Assembly: GCF_020164485.1 (NCBI RefSeq)
Contig: NZ_JAIQZA010000001.1
Location: forward strand, 124,001 to 188,000
Origin: Salegentibacter tibetensis
GTDB lineage: Bacteria; Bacteroidota; Bacteroidia; Flavobacteriales; Flavobacteriaceae
Length of the DNA stretch: 64,000 nucleotides
Direction of reading: 5' to 3'
Shown: positions 3,198 to 59,540 of the stretch, one piece after another
Layout: each line of letters starts with the position of its first letter
How positions within the stretch are numbered: position 1 is the first letter of the stretch
The notes under the pieces: model-generated
The model's input: only the letters and a program-made list of their open reading frames with translations
Told to the model about the DNA's origin: nothing
The model's database searches: none
Program-made: the position numbers and the translations under genes

Positions 3198-3643
3198 GCT
3201 GTCTGAAAAGTTTTTTAAATCGTCATTCTGAACTGGTTTCAGAATCTAAGATGTTGATAATAAAATCATGTTAGAAGCTGAAACCAGTTACCATTGACGT
3301 ATTTTAATATCCTGTTATTTAGGTTTGTTTTTTATATTTCTATATTCAAAAAGAAACTTACCTGGTTTGGAAGTTTCCTTTTTCATTTTTTGCGTGTATT
3401 CCTCTCACTGCGTTCGTCGGATACAAGTAAAACGAAACAAAACCCGCCTGAACGGACGGGCAGGAAGGGCGCCTATGTGGAGGTGTTTTTTTGGCAACTG
3501 CCTTCCTCTCCCTTTTGGTCGTCGGAGGCAGAAAAAATCGCACACGGAGTTTAAAACTCGCTATGCTCGAAACGTCATTTTACTACGCTAGGTAATTTTT
3601 TATCACGGGTCTCAGCTTGACGGAATTAGACTTTTCAGACAGC
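3198..3643. repeat. 446-bp element bounded by 14-bp terminal inverted repeats
   Basis: Left end GCTGTCTGAAAAGT (3198-3211) and right end ACTTTTCAGACAGC (3630-3643) are perfect inverted copies. A related 82-bp element lies at 25235-25316, and a right-end-like sequence (AAGACAGCCTCTTTT) at 46980-46994. No transposase is inside. It could be a MITE-like non-autonomous element or a degenerate repeat assembly; no clear target duplication is visible. Confidence 0.5.
3222..3299. repeat. Paired palindromic repeat (REP/BIME-like), copy 1
   Basis: Two inverted half-units, CGTCATTCTGAACTGGTTTC onward and its mirror ending in CATTGACG, with a 12-bp perfect inverted repeat AACTGGTTTCAG (3231-3242) / CTGAAACCAGTT (3278-3289). 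The same architecture recurs at 32361, 35922, 46885 and 59471. Confidence 0.75.
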
Positions 3644-23059: not shown

Positions 23060-25225
23060 GTTCACGAATGGTTTAAATCGTATTACGGTGCCGCAAATGC
23101 GGTTATAGCCATAGCCGGAGACATCACTCCCGATGAGGCTTATGAAAAAGTTTTAAAATATTTTGGGGATATTCCTTCCGGGCCAACTATAGAGCGACAG
23201 GAGGTAAATATTCCCGTAAAAAACAATGACACTTACCAGGTATATGAAGATCGTGTTCCCGAAAGTCGGGTTTTATTTGCCTGGAATACTCCGCAATTTG
23301 GTGATCGGGAAGACATTCATTTTGATCTACTTGCCGCAATTTTAAGTAGTGGAAAAAACTCCCGACTATACAAGAAACTGGTTTATGAAGATCAAACAGC
23401 CAGTTATATTTCGGCTTATCAGGCCTCGGGTGAAATTGCCAGCCGTTTTATTGCAATGGCAAATTTAAAGCCTGAAGCAGAAGTTGAAAAAGTAAAAGAA
23501 ACTTTACTCACAGAAATTGAAGACCTAATTAAAAACGGGCCCACTGAAGCAGAATTGAAACGGATAAAAGCCGAGTATTTTGCCAACTTTATAAAAGGGT
23601 TGGAACGTATTGGCGGTTTTGGAGGGGTTTCAGACATCCTGGCTTCAAACGAAACTTATTTTGGCGATCCCGCATATTACCAAACTGTTTTAAAATATGC
23701 CGAAGAAGCCACTCCTGAAGATCTTAAAGCTACTGCCCAAAAGTGGTTAACCCAGGGAAAACATATTTTAGTTGCCAATCCTTTTCCGGAATATACCACT
23801 ACTGAGTCTACGGTAGACCGATCTAAGCTACCGGAATTGGGACCAACAAAAAGCAGTAAATTTCCAGATTTACAACGAGCAACCCTTTCAAACGGAATGA
23901 ATATCCTTCTGGCTAAAAGAGAGGGTGTTCCTACAATTGTGATGGATCTAATGTTTGATGCCGGCTACAAAACCGATATTCTAGCAAAACCGGGAACTGC
24001 TTCACTTGCGATGAGTTTACTTGATGAAGGCACTGATAACTTAAACGCACTTCAAATTAGTGAAAAGTTACAAATGCTTGGAGCAGATTTATATACCAGT
24101 TCTGATCAGGATATTTCCAGCGTTAGTATGCGAACTTTAAAGCCGAGTTTGGACGAAAGTCTGGATCTGTTTGCCGAGGTAATTCAAAACCCTGCTTTCC
24201 CTGAAAATGAATTTCAACGCTTAAAAACGGAACAACTAAATAGTATAAAAAGGGAAAAATCGCAACCTATAGGTATGGCACTTAGGGTGATCAACAAATA
24301 CCTTTATGGTGAAGGCCACCCATATAGCAATCCGTATACCGGCACCGGTTATGAAAATACCGTTGAAAGTTTGATTCGTGACGAGGTGGTAAACTTTTAT
24401 CAATCCTGCCTCAAACCAAATAACGCAACATTAGTGGTTACCGGGGATGTGGAAATGGACGAACTTCAAAGTAAACTTGAAAAAAGCCTCAGCAACTGGA
24501 AAAAGGGTGATGTACCACAGGTAAGTTTTAAAAAGCCAGAAACCGGGACTAAAAATACTTTATATTTAATAGACCGACCGGAATCTCAACAATCTGTAAT
24601 CATCGCAGGTCACCTTACCGAAAAATATGGAGCTCTTTCAGAAATTGCTGTAGAACAAATGGTAAACATCCTTGGAGGGGAGTTCACATCCCGAATCAAT
24701 ATGAATTTACGCGAAGATAAGCACTGGGCTTATGGCGCCGGAGGTTTTGTTATGGGAGCTAAACAGGAAAGACCATTTATTGTTTACGCCCCGGTACAAA
24801 CCGATAAATCAGCTGAATCGGTTACGGAGCTTAGAAAGGAACTAGCCGATTTCGTTACATCAAGGCCGGCAACCAGGGAAGAGCTTGAAAAAGTAAAAAC
24901 CAATCAAATCCTTGGGCTTCCGGGACAATGGGAAACCAATGCCGCGGTAAACAGTTCGCTAAGAAATCTGGTAAAATATAATCTGCCAGATAATTATTAT
25001 CAGGAATACGATAGCAATGTGCGAAACCTGAGCCTGGATGAATTGCACGATGTAAGTAATACCGTGGTAAAACCTGAAAATGTGAACTGGTTTATTGTTG
25101 GCGATAAAGCCAAAATTGAAGAAAATCTTAATGAAATTGGCTTTGATCAAATTATAGAAATCGACGCCGATGGCAACCGCTTATCATCTTCTATAGAAAA
25201 CCAACAAGTTGAATTAAAAGATTAA
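23060..25225 (+). pseudogene. M16 zinc protease, 3' fragment downstream of IS110 insertion
   Basis: About 721 codons continue the M16 peptidase frame from VHEWFKSYYGAANAVIAIAG through the second domain pair (KLPELGPTKSSKFPDLQRAT; FTSRINMNLREDKHWAYGAG). Compared with the family as I know it, about 45 residues between DEQRGVVQNE and VHEWF, including the segment with the third zinc ligand and the conserved QGENQPYGR region, are absent from both fragments. The fragment has no start at its beginning; the first in-frame ATG is 23456, which would skip most of the first domain's end. Probably not a functional enzyme. Confidence 0.88.
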
Positions 25226-25234
25226 TTTAAAAGA

Positions 25235-25316
25235 GGCTGTTTGAGAAGTTTTATAATCCTCATCCTGTTCCGAAGCTTCGGGACAGCTTGACGAAATTAC
25301 TTTTTCTCAAACAGCC
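25235..25316. repeat. 82-bp element with 12-bp inverted ends; possible bidirectional terminator
   Basis: GGCTGTTTGAGA (25235-25246) and TCTCAAACAGCC (25305-25316) are perfect inverted copies and resemble the ends of the 3198-3643 element. Inside is a near-perfect palindrome CTGTTCCGAAGCTTCGGGAC + AG (25265-25286). It lies between converging genes and could end transcription both ways. Confidence 0.65.
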
Positions 25317-25352
25317 ACTTCTTTATTGATTTTCTTCTTATAGACCATAGGC

Positions 25353-32360: not shown

Positions 32361-32439
32361 CGTCAAGCTGTATTTATTTCAGCTTCTAACATAATATTAA
32401 TTTTAATAGAGTTAGATCCTGAAATGAATTCAGGATGAC
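32361..32439. repeat. Paired palindromic repeat, copy 2
   Basis: CGTCAAGCTGTATTTATTTC half followed about 50 bases on by its inverse TTAGATCCTGAAATGAATTC; each half folds as a hairpin and the two are inverted relative to each other. Confidence 0.7.
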
Positions 32440-33335: not shown

Positions 33336-33347
33336 GTAATACAAAAA

Positions 33348-33380
33348 AGACCTCACAGGTTTTGAAAACCTGTGAGGTCT
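33348..33380. terminator. 16-bp perfect hairpin between converging genes
   Basis: AGACCTCACAGGTTTT (33348-33363) and AAAACCTGTGAGGTCT (33365-33380) are exact inverted copies. It separates the SDR gene from mfd, which face each other, and could terminate both. A nearly identical hairpin lies at 40518-40550. Confidence 0.75.
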
Positions 33381-33489: not shown

Positions 33490-36400
33490 TTATGAAGCTT
33501 TTTCGACTTCTTCTTCCTTCATCCTAAAATCCAATGGCTCTAAAACCTGTAAAGCAATTTCAATTGAATTAATTTTTTCAAAAGTTAGTAGCAAACGCAA
33601 ACCGTTCCGGGTTTTCTTTTCCTTCATCGTGCATTTGTGCCTATGCGTTTGCACGTATTGCAGCACTTTGGTAAACGTATTGGTTTGGTAAAACCTGGAT
33701 TGCTGATCAGCTATGAAATAGCCTATTAATTTACCTTGCTTTAAAATAATTTTCTCTAAACCTATACCCGCCGCGATCCATTTTATCCTCACGCTATTCA
33801 ATAAATCTACAGCCTGAGTTGGCAATTCCCCAAAACGGTCTACAAGTTCGGTTTCAAATTTCTGCAATTCCTCTTCCGAAGTAATTTTATTCAGCTGCGT
33901 ATAAAGGTTCAACCTTTCAGTAATACTATTGATATAATCATCGGGGAATAAGATCTCAAAATCGGTATCAATTTGCGTATCCTTTACGAAAGTCTTGTCT
34001 TCAATATTTTCAGATTCGCTATACAGTTCCTGGAATTCGTTTTCCTTTAATTCCTCAATAGCTTCATTCAGAATTTTCTGATAAGTATCAAAACCTATTT
34101 CATTTATAAACCCACTTTGTTCGCCGCCCAGTAAATCTCCAGCACCACGAATTTCCAGATCTTTCATCGCGATATTTATTCCGCTTCCCAGTTCAGAAAA
34201 TTGCTCAAGGGCGCTAATTCGCTTTCGTGCATCTTCGGTCATTACGGAATATGGCGGCGTTATAAAGTAGCAAAACGCTTTTTTATTACTTCGGCCTACT
34301 CTACCCCGCATTTGGTGCAAATCGGACACTCCGAAATTATTCGCATTATTGATAAAAATGGTGTTCGCGTTGGTCACATCGAGCCCGCTTTCTACGATCG
34401 TAGTAGAAACAAGCACATCAAATTCGCCGTTAATAAAACTCAGCATCAGTTTTTCCAGTTTCTTACCTTCCATCTGGCCGTGCCCCACACCTATTTTTGC
34501 ATCTGGAACCACACGCTGAATCATACCGGCGACTTCCTTAATATTTTCAATTCTGTTATGAATAAAGAAAACCTGCCCTCCACGTTGAATTTCATAAGAA
34601 ACCGCATCCCGAATTGTTTCTTCGGAAAAACGGATCACATTCGTTTCTATTGGATAACGGTTTGGTGGCGGTGTGGTAATGGTAGACAAATCTCGCGCGG
34701 CCATTAAACTAAACTGAAGCGTTCGTGGAATAGGCGTTGCCGTGAGCGTGAGCGTATCTACATTTTCTTTTATGGTTTTGAGCTTATCTTTTACCGAAAC
34801 CCCAAATTTTTGCTCCTCGTCTACAATCAGCAGGCCCAGGTCTTTAAATTTCACCGCTTTATTCACCAACTGGTGCGTACCAATAACAATATCAACTTTT
34901 CCACTCTCTAAATCGGCCAGGGTTTCGCGGCGTTCTTTTGCAGTCCTAAACCTGTTTAAATAATCCACCGTAACCGGAAAATCTTTTAAACGTTCAGAAA
35001 AAGTTTGGTGATGCTGAAAAGCCAAAATGGTGGTTGGCACTAAGACCGCGACCTGTTTTCCATTATCTACCGCCTTAAAAGCAGCCCGAATCGCAACCTC
35101 GGTTTTCCCGAAACCAACATCCCCACAAACCAAACGGTCCATTGGGCGCTCGTTTTCCATATCTTCTTTTACTGCCTGGGTTGCGGTACTTTGATCTGGT
35201 GTGTCTTCATATATAAAAGAAGCTTCCAGCTCGTGCTGTAAATAAGAATCAGGACCAAAAGCAAAACCTTTTTGCAGGCGGCGTTTGGCATAAAGTTCAA
35301 TTAAATTGTAGGCAATATGCTTAACGCGGGCCTTGGTTTTTTGCTTTAGTTTTTTCCAGGCGTTGCTGCCCAATTTAAACATCTTGGGTTCTTTTCCGTC
35401 TTTTCCGTTGTATTTCGAAATTTTATGCAGCGAATGTATGCTGAGATACAAAATATCCCGTTCACCATAGAAAAGTTTAATGGCTTCCTGCATCTTACCT
35501 TCCACATCAATTTTCTGAAGGCCGCCAAATTTTCCAATTCCATGGTCAATATGGGTTACGTAATCGCCGACTTCCAGGTTGGTAAGTTCCTTTAGCGTAA
35601 TCGCCTGTTTCTTGGCGTAACCGTTTTTGAGATGAAATTTATGATAGCGCTCAAAAATCTGGTGATCGGTGTAACAAACATTCTTACCCGTTTCATCTAT
35701 AAACCCCTGAAAAAGGGCTAAAGTTATAGTTTGGTATTTTACTTTCTGCTCCTGGTCGTCAAAAATATCGTGGAAACGCTTGGCCTGTTGTTCGCTAACA
35801 CAGAAAATATAATTGGTATACCCGTTCTCCTGATTTTCAATTAAATTATCGATTAGTAAATCGAATTGCTTATTGAATGAAGGCTGTGGTTTGGTTTGGA
35901 ATTCTATAAGTTTTACCCCACCGTCACCCTGAACTTGTTTCAGGGTCTCATTCGACTTAGATCCTGAAATAAATTCAGGAAGACGAAAGTAAGATTGGTT
36001 GCTCCATTCAACTACTGAAAAAAGCTCGAGCTGCTCTTTAATCAACTGGCCGTTACAAAACAACTCATTGGGTTCGCTGTGTTTAACCTCTTCCGAAAGT
36101 TTCTTAAAAGCTTCTTCTGCTTTACTGAAAAGCTTATCGGCCTGCGCAGTGAGCAAATCGAGGTTTTTTACAAAAACCACCGTTTTTTCTGAAATATATC
36201 TTAGAAAACTGTCTCTTATTTCATCCAAATGTTTGTTTTCAACATTCGGCATCACCGAAATTTTCTTCACTTTATCTGTAGAAAGCTGGGTTTCCACATC
36301 GAAACTCCTAATGCTGTCCACCTCATCACCAAAAAACTCGATTCGATAAGGCTCGTCGTTACTAAAGGAAAAAACATCTATGATCCCACCACGAACTGAG

Positions 36401-36939
36401 AATTCCCCCGGTTCGGTTACAAAATCTACCCGCTTGAATTTATATTCAAACAGTACTTCGTTCACAAAATCTATAGAAAGTTCATCTTCCACAGAGATTT
36501 TCAGCGTACTTCTGTCCAGTTCTTTACGTGTAACAACTTTTTCAAATAAAGCATCGGGATAGGTGACGATTATCGCCGGTTTTTTACGGGAATTAATTCG
36601 ATTTAAAACCTCGGCCCGTAATAGTACGTTGGCATTATCGGTTTCCTCAATTTGATAAGGACGGCGGTAACTTCCGGGATAAAAAAGCACATTTTTTTCC
36701 CCCACCAATTGTTCCAAATCATTTAAATAATAGGCGGCTTCTTCTTTATCATTAAAAATCAGCAAAAAGGGTTTTTCGGCTTCTTTAAATGCATTGGCAG
36801 CAACAAAAGAAAACGAAGAACCAATAAGGCCTTTCAGTTGGATTTTAGTACGATTTTTTTCAGAAGAGACAAGGGAGTCCCTCAATTCCTGCTGTTGCGG
36901 GGATTGTGCAAAGCTTTGGGCGATAATAGTTTTACTCAT
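33490..36939 (-). CDS. mfd: Transcription-repair coupling factor
   Basis: An ATP-driven translocase that removes RNA polymerase stalled at DNA damage and recruits UvrA. 1149 residues: N-terminal UvrB-like region, RNAP-binding CarD-like domain (LEVGDYVTHIDHGIGKFGGL), RecA-like motor with Walker A GDVGFGKTE (about 601-609) and DEEQ box (about 705), and the TRCF C-terminal domain. Start chosen at 36939 (MSKTIIAQSF): the -7 box at 36945-36952 lies just before it, so the ATG at 36975 is upstream of the promoter. Residues about 319-340 are encoded by a palindromic repeat. Confidence 0.96.
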   Translation of the reverse strand: MSKTIIAQSFAQSPQQQELRDSLVSSEKNRTKIQLKGLIGSSFSFVAANAFKEAEKPFLLIFNDKEEAAYYLNDLEQLVGEKNVLFYPGSYRRPYQIEETDNANVLLRAEVLNRINSRKKPAIIVTYPDALFEKVVTRKELDRSTLKISVEDELSIDFVNEVLFEYKFKRVDFVTEPGEFSVRGGIIDVFSFSNDEPYRIEFFGDEVDSIRSFDVETQLSTDKVKKISVMPNVENKHLDEIRDSFLRYISEKTVVFVKNLDLLTAQADKLFSKAEEAFKKLSEEVKHSEPNELFCNGQLIKEQLELFSVVEWSNQSYFRLPEFISGSKSNETLKQVQGDGGVKLIEFQTKPQPSFNKQFDLLIDNLIENQENGYTNYIFCVSEQQAKRFHDIFDDQEQKVKYQTITLALFQGFIDETGKNVCYTDHQIFERYHKFHLKNGYAKKQAITLKELTNLEVGDYVTHIDHGIGKFGGLQKIDVEGKMQEAIKLFYGERDILYLSIHSLHKISKYNGKDGKEPKMFKLGSNAWKKLKQKTKARVKHIAYNLIELYAKRRLQKGFAFGPDSYLQHELEASFIYEDTPDQSTATQAVKEDMENERPMDRLVCGDVGFGKTEVAIRAAFKAVDNGKQVAVLVPTTILAFQHHQTFSERLKDFPVTVDYLNRFRTAKERRETLADLESGKVDIVIGTHQLVNKAVKFKDLGLLIVDEEQKFGVSVKDKLKTIKENVDTLTLTATPIPRTLQFSLMAARDLSTITTPPPNRYPIETNVIRFSEETIRDAVSYEIQRGGQVFFIHNRIENIKEVAGMIQRVVPDAKIGVGHGQMEGKKLEKLMLSFINGEFDVLVSTTIVESGLDVTNANTIFINNANNFGVSDLHQMRGRVGRSNKKAFCYFITPPYSVMTEDARKRISALEQFSELGSGINIAMKDLEIRGAGDLLGGEQSGFINEIGFDTYQKILNEAIEELKENEFQELYSESENIEDKTFVKDTQIDTDFEILFPDDYINSITERLNLYTQLNKITSEEELQKFETELVDRFGELPTQAVDLLNSVRIKWIAAGIGLEKIILKQGKLIGYFIADQQSRFYQTNTFTKVLQYVQTHRHKCTMKEKKTRNGLRLLLTFEKINSIEIALQVLEPLDFRMKEEEVEKAS
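35922..35985 (-). repeat. Palindromic repeat translated inside mfd
   Basis: 64 bases made of two inverted half-units (CGTCACCCTGAACTTGTTTC and its mirror ending GGAAGACG) with the same design as intergenic copies. It is read in frame in mfd as RLPEFISGS then KSNETLKQVQGDG, adding about 21 residues between the damage-recognition part and the RNAP-binding part. Confidence 0.85.
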
Positions 36940-40509: not shown

Positions 40510-40517
40510 CTAATTTA

Positions 40518-40556
40518 AGACCTCACAGGTTTCAAAAACCTGTGAGGTCTTTTTTG
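40518..40556 (-). terminator. Hairpin terminator after aminotransferase gene
   Basis: AGACCTCACAGGTTT (40518-40532) / AAACCTGTGAGGTCT (40536-40550), 15-bp perfect stem, loop of 3. Runs of T/A on both sides make it suitable in either direction. Nearly identical to the hairpin at 33348-33380. Confidence 0.75.
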
Positions 40557-46884: not shown

Positions 46885-46962
46885 CGTCAAGCTGAACTTG
46901 TTTCAGCTTCTAACTTGTTCTGATTCTCACAAACTTAGATCCTGAAACAAGTTCAGGATGAC
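46885..46962. repeat. Paired palindromic repeat, copy 3
   Basis: CGTCAAGCTGAACTTGTTTC half-unit and its inverse CTTAGATCCTGAAACAAGTT ending CAGGATGACG. Followed at 46980 by AAGACAGCCTCTTTT, like the right end of the 3198-3643 element. It lies in the gap upstream of the aminopeptidase gene and its last bases contain an unused ATG (46958). Confidence 0.75.
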
Positions 46963-47005
46963 GCCTTCAATTACTTTTAAGACAGCCTCTTTTATAAATA
47001 ACAAT

Positions 47006-59470: not shown

Positions 59471-59540
59471 CGTCATGCTGACTTATTTCAGCATCTATTA
59501 TGATTTGAAATTTAGACACTGAAATAAATTCAGCGTGACG
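59471..59540. repeat. Paired palindromic repeat, copy 4
   Basis: CGTCATGCTGACTTATTTCA half-unit and its inverse TTAGACACTGAAATAAATTC ending CAGCGTGACG. It follows the DUF3078 stop. Confidence 0.7.

Follow-up and report, generated by a model that had tools for sequence, protein, structure and literature searches.

The window, a 64,000-nt stretch of DNA from Salegentibacter tibetensis, contains an intact mfd gene on the minus strand (33490..36939), which encodes a transcription-repair coupling factor of 1149 amino acids. The protein carries the Pfam domains UvrB_inter (residues 146-232) and the RNAP-binding CarD_TRCF_RID (residues 455-510), followed by DEAD, Helicase_C and TRCF. Among the best 80 of 586 confirmed loci, the S. 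lacus locus shows the highest identity to the window Mfd. A 64-nt CGTC-tagged palindrome pair lies in frame within the gene (35922..35985, minus strand) and encodes Mfd residues 319-339 plus the first base of codon 340, in the linker that joins the UvrB-like part to the RNAP-binding part. The first-pass annotation had described a 64-bp paired palindrome read in frame as about 21 extra residues between these two parts, and the domain boundaries and reading frame bear it out. Two CGTC-tagged hairpins, inverted with respect to each other and face to face, make up the repeat, with an unpaired CGTC tag at both ends. Unit 1 (35922..35949, plus strand) contains the tag at 35922-35925, a perfect 8-bp stem (35926-35933/35939-35946) whose second pair is C-G, a 5-nt loop and the tail CTC. 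Unit 2 (35957..35985, minus strand), with its tag GACG at 35982-35985, has one stem mismatch in S. tibetensis and is perfect in three other Salegentibacter genomes (G004, G005 and G008).

The mfd repeat belongs to a dispersed family. The paired CGTC pattern matched 44 times in the 4.2-Mb S. tibetensis genome and the reversed control had no matches, so the mfd pair is not a product of chance. The pattern was found in 31 of 149 family genomes, and Salegentibacter genomes (G000-G014) contain from 0 to 76 CTGAA pairs each. The left end is exactly CGTC in 34 of the 44 pairs and the right end exactly GACG in 41; the tags point outward in 43 and inward in one (L208). The units have an 8-bp stem and a 5-nt loop, and the tails are mostly CTA, with CTC in the mfd copy. 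Other members in the window are a pair that does not lie in a long open frame (46885..46963), two relatives with a degenerate second (3221..3299) or first (32361..32439) unit, and a single hairpin unit (59500..59539). As the first-pass annotation had proposed, the family is mostly intergenic, 43 of the 44 pairs being outside any long frame. Over the full element, thirty-nine pairs have stops in all six frames, and five can be read through in one frame or more; the mfd copy is the sole one within an open frame with at least 50 codons on each side. What closes the frames is the common inner sequence TCTAA..TTAGA; in the mfd copy TGAGA replaces one TTAGA. Coding is thus not a designed property of the family, and the copy in mfd is one that survived. 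The earlier suggestion that at least one orientation is readable does not hold as a property of the family in this genome.

Some members have a more elaborate organization. Thirteen of 43 pairs in this genome, including one in the window (46885-46987), have a 15-nt arm at a nearly fixed distance from the core, either a GGCTGTCTGAAAAGT-like arm about 30 nt before it, ACTTTTCAGACAGCC about 15 nt after it, or both (six pairs, with up to 2 mismatches). Judged by sequence, these armed pairs resemble a MITE-like form of the CGTC pair or a nested hairpin of larger size. Outer arms of this type also surround a different inner palindrome, with no CTGAA pair, elsewhere in the window (25218-25333, arms GGCTGTTTGAGAAGT..TTCTCAAACAGCC). 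In a relative (G136), three CTGAA pairs overlap in tandem at a spacing of 48 nt (C1:2485316-2485474).

We compared the family with the superfamily of CGTC-tagged repetitive extragenic palindromes (REPs) defined by Di Nocera, De Gregorio and Rocco in 2013 (PMC3733652), whose reported hosts include Bacteroidetes, with G. forsetii named as positive. As laid out in the sections of that paper used here, such REPs have an 8-9 bp stem that begins with two A/T pairs, a 4-5 nt loop and a 3-nt tail, which is CCA in most but not all cases; the tag variants TGTC and CCTC are allowed, and inverted dimers predominate (HH in the notation of the source, which may or may not denote the outward tags seen here) (PMC3733652). 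The same sections describe no transposase beside these REPs, report REPs in the coding frames of repair genes, and ask whether the repair genes that host REPs are hit by accident (PMC3733652). By its features, the Salegentibacter pair fits this superfamily except in the tail. Shared are the unpaired CGTC tag at one end of each unit, stem and loop lengths within its range, basal A/T pairs, the arrangement as inverted dimers, the mostly intergenic location, the lack of a flanked transposase gene and the occasional in-frame copy in a repair gene. G. forsetii, a Gramella, is a relative. The Salegentibacter tails differ in being mostly CTA or CTC rather than CCA. The main text of PMC3733652 does not name mfd, nor does it, in the sections used here, describe different palindromes returning to a single linker in several genera, as we report below. 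The nearest precedent there is recB of Xanthomonas campestris and X. oryzae, in which REPs occur at about the same site (PMC3733652). In both cases a repair gene has received different REPs at a single site; for recB this concerns two species of one genus, for mfd several genera and two or more classes of palindrome. Among the papers listed in our literature search, none, judged by title and abstract opening, deals with REPs in Mfd; one of them, on cyanobacterial termination (PMC13289151), contains both words.

We examined the structural context of the insert with AlphaFold2, using an alignment of 35 sequences (35 of the 80 loci passed the filter and 34 were used, L163 being left out). Residues 320-339 have pLDDT values below 50 and are flanked by strands at residues 308-312 and 343-346, in a model that is weak as a whole (mean pLDDT 62.9), with residues 142-237 likewise low. 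In a Foldseek search with this model the top matches were Mfd structures, at a large rmsd. PDB sequence searches gave no alignment of residues 234-409 of the window Mfd to E. coli Mfd. From the order along the chain and the AlphaFold2 model, the insert-bearing stretch is probably the linker between domains D1b and D3, and the 21-residue insert is predicted to be disordered. D3 has been described as swinging by about 47 Å on flexible linkers to D1b and D4 (in the part of PMC7385628 consulted) and as non-conserved and lineage-specific (in that of PMC7864632).

To follow the insert across the genus, we aligned Mfd from 15 Salegentibacter genomes including that of S. tibetensis. A match was found in 14, the sole exception being a genome that is 61% complete (G014). 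The alignment, which the first-pass annotation had called for, revealed the insert in six of these 14 (G000, which is S. tibetensis, G004, G005, G008, G009 and G013) and an empty site in the other eight. The empty-site linkers resemble the insert-free linkers of related genera, e.g. NQAYLEPEKS. Because the site is empty in eight Salegentibacter genes and in other genera, the palindrome pair in mfd is an insertion. The linker is 12 residues long in the eight empty-site genes, 33 in G000, G004, G005 and G008, 29 in G013 and 41 in G009; S. tibetensis Mfd thus has a net gain of 21 residues over the empty-site proteins. The longer first unit of G009 contains an inner hairpin, and this long form occurs at 10 further places among the loci compared (up to 3 mismatches). 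Together with its junction codons the repeat spans 35914..35994 (minus strand), with TCT TAC TTT before it and GGT GGG GTA after it, where the empty sites have codons of the type GCN TAT TTA GAA CCT GAA. We considered precise excision as the origin of the empty alleles and rejected it, since empty and filled alleles do not have the same codons around the insert.

The insert is patchy across species. On an mfd tree calculated with the insert left out, the carriers do not form a clade (p-AU 4e-6), and four insert changes are needed, three of them forced by well-supported branches. The same applies to a tree of metG, located about 16 kb from mfd (p-AU 7.8e-8), with six changes, two of them forced. 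A single, vertically inherited insertion with the carriers as a clade is rejected by these trees. The carriers share their junction, namely a Ser codon TCT (TCC in G009) and TTT preceding the tag (ATT in G004), and five of the six have a tail of the GGCGGGGTA type. They also have in common the spacer AAGTCGAATGAGA, which is absent from the other 43 pairs of the S. tibetensis genome. From the shared junction codons and spacer, the insert looks identical by descent. Between carriers, the pooled pS is 0.14 in the insert, on only about 17 synonymous sites, versus 0.60 in the flanks and an expectation of 0.55-0.60, so that the insert is less diverged than its surroundings. G000, G005 and G008 differ at 1 to 3 positions over the compared insert codons and are identical in the last six codons before it; overall, the flanks of carriers are just slightly more alike than those of other genes. 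Such a low pS is hard to reconcile with simple, long-standing neutral carriage of the insert unless recombination or selection played a part. Our guess is that short-tract recombination produced both the low divergence and the patchy set of carriers; selection on the insert could also do so. The pN/pS ratio between carriers is 0.75 in the insert, again on few sites, compared to 0.09 for the flanks (100 codons per side) and 0.06 for mfd as a whole. This indicates that Mfd is constrained and that the insert evolves nearly freely.

To get a broader picture, we compared 89 mfd genes, comprising the 80 best loci without five duplicates (L107-L110 and L114) plus the 14 Salegentibacter genes; the selection leans to near relatives, mostly Flavobacteriaceae by title. 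The linker varies among them, from about 9 to 47 residues (larger computed values are parsing errors), and its DNA is palindromic in many genera. Salinimicrobium has palindromic linker DNA encoding RHPELVSGS (CTGAACTTGTTTCAG), and Winogradskyella, Psychroserpens, Lutibacter and Polaribacter have palindromic linkers of the LKQVQND type. By eye, other linker palindromes are seen in Aquimarina, Flaviramulus, Wocania, Algibacter, Flavivirga and others. For the scans we defined the zone as the 45 codons before the motif QPSFN, since delimiting the linker by a regular expression led to erroneous lengths in several genes and to no length at all in L183. A strict CGTC-hairpin detector found 11 matches in the zones of nine genes (0.05 on average after codon shuffling) and one match in the rest of mfd, at an A/T-rich place (2.9 on average after shuffling). 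In 693,723 nt of open frames of at least 150 codons (the window and 88 loci) there were 12 strict matches, all of them in mfd, and none in the roughly 0.39 Mb of non-mfd open frames; the 112,763 nt outside such frames contained 47.

In 14 of the 89 genes the zone contains the strongest hairpin found anywhere in the DNA of the gene, compared to 3.64 expected (P 1.5e-5), a generous value in that the genes are related and six of the 14 are Salegentibacter carriers or near chance cases; two of the 14 (L115 and L117) have short linkers and probably ordinary hairpins. Windows from the zone match non-mfd DNA in 15 of 89 genes, two of them at noise level (L128 and L137, E 8.6e-4; for these we rely on the genome search below), versus 29 of 2050 control windows, several of which hit what looks like mfd left unmasked in other loci. 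Searching for inverted repeats in general had no specificity (zone, 16 versus 2.9 in shuffled sequences; rest, 89 versus 56.6). The elements are not all at one codon: in L123 the element begins near the start of the linker, and in L126, L127, L139 and L148 it stops close to the far side. Palindromes of at least two classes are firmly established in the linker and about five sequence types can be told apart by eye; these are counts of kinds, not events, as neighboring genera may have insertions in common by descent. The linker of Psychroserpens mesophilus (L127) contains a hybrid pair, with a left unit of the TCGAG type and a right unit of the CTGAA type. The Mfd linker is thus a recurrent landing site of palindromes, a finding that goes beyond the first-pass annotation.

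The linker elements also have relatives elsewhere in their host genomes. A joined query of six linker elements matched in all 14 genomes searched, with at least 2 to 45 matches listed per genome and up to 40 candidates scored in each. Linker residues similar to those of S. tibetensis occur in other genera, but the DNA there has a palindrome of its own. The refuting observation named in the first-pass annotation, the same residues in distant relatives that lack the repeat family, was thus not made. Winogradskyella (L158) has at least four further copies of its own linker element and Lutibacter (L128) at least three; in Psychroserpens (L127) both halves have further copies. Wocania (L137) has a second full-length copy, provided that contig 1 shares the coordinates of the named record, and in Flavivirga (L181) just the mfd copy is among the matches listed. 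For the remaining nine genomes, whose own linker element was not in the query, the matches are related elements.

We considered a RAYT-like gene encoded on contig C153 of the S. tibetensis genome as the mover of these repeats. Like REPINs, the CGTC elements are short palindromes in inverted pairs. The gene itself has palindromes on both sides and dispersed copies of them, which resembles subclass 2.6 of the TnpA-REP elements of Bacteroidetes as outlined in the portion of PMC6006769 used here. However, the palindrome that flanks it and its homologues is an approximately 33-nt AGACCT..AGGTCT type or a relative thereof, not the CGTC type of mfd, and no cognate RAYT flanked by the CGTC palindrome was found at the loci examined. 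Of 19 RAYT-like loci, 14 were tested (the partial matches L074 and L077-L080 were left out) against 48 control stretches, which scored at most 9. Nine have such palindromes on both sides, among them L071, one flank of which scores just 9, the control maximum; L065, L068 and L072 have one on one side and L073 has none. L070 has two strong flanking palindromes of another sequence. The strong flanking palindromes of loci L062-L076 differ by genome (AGACCTCACAGG, AGACCCTTCAGG, GACCTGCAAGG, ACCCTTTCAGGG), which suggests, at the level of sequence, that the gene and its flanking palindrome change together. The AGACCT..AGGTCT type has 17 copies in S. tibetensis and 0 to 17 among Salegentibacter genomes; the window contains two, just past the end of mfd (33347..33380) and at 40517..40550.

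In 54 loci around Y1_Tnp and RAYT-like matches (L053-L106), exact CTGAA-type units occur in two, one of which, in L090, is about 125 nt from an IS200-type fragment, and none is at a RAYT-like gene. The RAYT-like gene was rejected as the mover of the CGTC pairs, given that its homologues are flanked by other palindromes and that G001, G005, G007 and G009 have 33-71 CTGAA pairs and no match to this RAYT-like gene; G001 has no Y1_Tnp match at all. Against this rejection, all five genomes of the family sample with at least ten pairs (G000, G097, G126, G136 and G151) contain Y1_Tnp matches, which are found in 59 of 149 family genomes. By reading, the in-frame linker palindrome of Lutibacter (L128) is of the RAYT-flanking type, and that of Polaribacter porphyrae (L148), beside a CTGAA unit, resembles it more loosely. 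That one and the same linker has received different elements speaks for tolerance rather than for the target choice of a single element.

We consider it probable that a REP pair landed in a permissive, flexible linker of Mfd and persists as an in-frame passenger of the protein. A dimer of CGTC-tagged REPs would have landed in the linker from the UvrB-homology module (D1b) to D3, and would have been kept for a net length divisible by three, the lack of stops in the needed frame and the tolerance of a long disordered loop at this place; in related genera this linker has likewise taken up in-frame palindromes, which differ in sequence. Counting for this reading are the empty sites, the restriction of strict CGTC hairpins to the linker, the position of the strongest hairpins, the further genomic copies, the second palindrome class, the near-neutral pN/pS of the insert within a constrained gene, the low pLDDT and the flexible linkers described on both sides of D3 (PMC7385628, in part). 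Counting against it are carriers that are not a clade and yet share a junction, the low divergence of the insert, the weak AlphaFold2 model and the stretch unaligned to E. coli Mfd. That the same element was inserted independently in each carrier, as opposed to one insertion passed on by descent and recombination, would account for the mfd and metG trees and for the low insert divergence; the junction changes common to the carriers and their private spacer make it quite unlikely. Least probable of all is a family that spreads as readable modules in the manner of the Rickettsia protein-coding palindromic elements. The parallel drawn in the first-pass annotation is sound in that R. conorii CGTC repeats have been equated with RPE-6 and RPE-4 (PMC3733652, in the sections used here), which share the tag, and in that RPE-4, RPE-6 and RPE-1 are likewise palindromes translated in frame inside a working gene, here also at a linker. 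Members of a family of that kind would be readable and occur in many genes. The Salegentibacter family, in this genome, is almost unreadable, only a single member of the 44 being coding. The consulted part of a Rickettsia genome paper (PMC2635572) does not mention mfd.

Two further readings concern the linker itself, and we regard both as unlikely, if slightly less so than independent insertion. In one, the elements are drawn in by the DNA of the linker or by transcription or repair taking place at mfd, and the recurrence reflects landing and not only survival. It would explain recurrence within about 4% of one gene, and repair genes are frequent REP hosts, with the shared recB site of two Xanthomonas species as an example (PMC3733652, same sections); however, the elements sit at differing codons and belong to at least two classes, and the same pattern is expected if copies that are out of frame or do damage are simply lost. 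We infer that tolerance rather than targeting causes the recurrence. In the other, a longer D1b-D3 linker changes the movement of D3, the exposure of UvrA or the removal of RNAP, and is selected. Such an adaptive insert would explain the recurrence, the spread between species and the low divergence. It draws on the patchy and little-diverged insert, the 47 Å movement of D3 on its flanking linkers (PMC7385628, in part) and the speculation of Di Nocera et al. that REP-tagged repair proteins favor mutators (PMC3733652, same sections). The pN/pS of 0.75, the deviating insert lengths of G009 and G013, the different peptides of other genera and the eight Salegentibacter genes that lack the insert speak against it, and the insert is presumably without function. 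A bolder version, to which we give an equally small chance, has the D1b-D3 linker as a repeatedly exploited tuning site, lengthened by palindromic mobile DNA in Flavobacteriaceae so as to alter transcription-coupled repair or the mutation rate, with the allele spreading between species via very short recombination tracts.

REPs in repair genes have been known since 2013, and the question of whether they are there by accident is helped here by one linker followed through 89 genes. The evidence that helps to separate the possibilities is the confinement of the hairpins to a linker predicted to be disordered, the presence of more than one palindrome class and, where the insert can be compared, its nearly neutral evolution. 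The relatives provide a natural series of Mfd linker lengths, from about 9 to 47 residues, that could serve to test how far the linker stretches, and Salegentibacter offers a ready set of empty and filled mfd alleles within one genus. The linker is thus a natural record of the insertions that a repair protein can tolerate.
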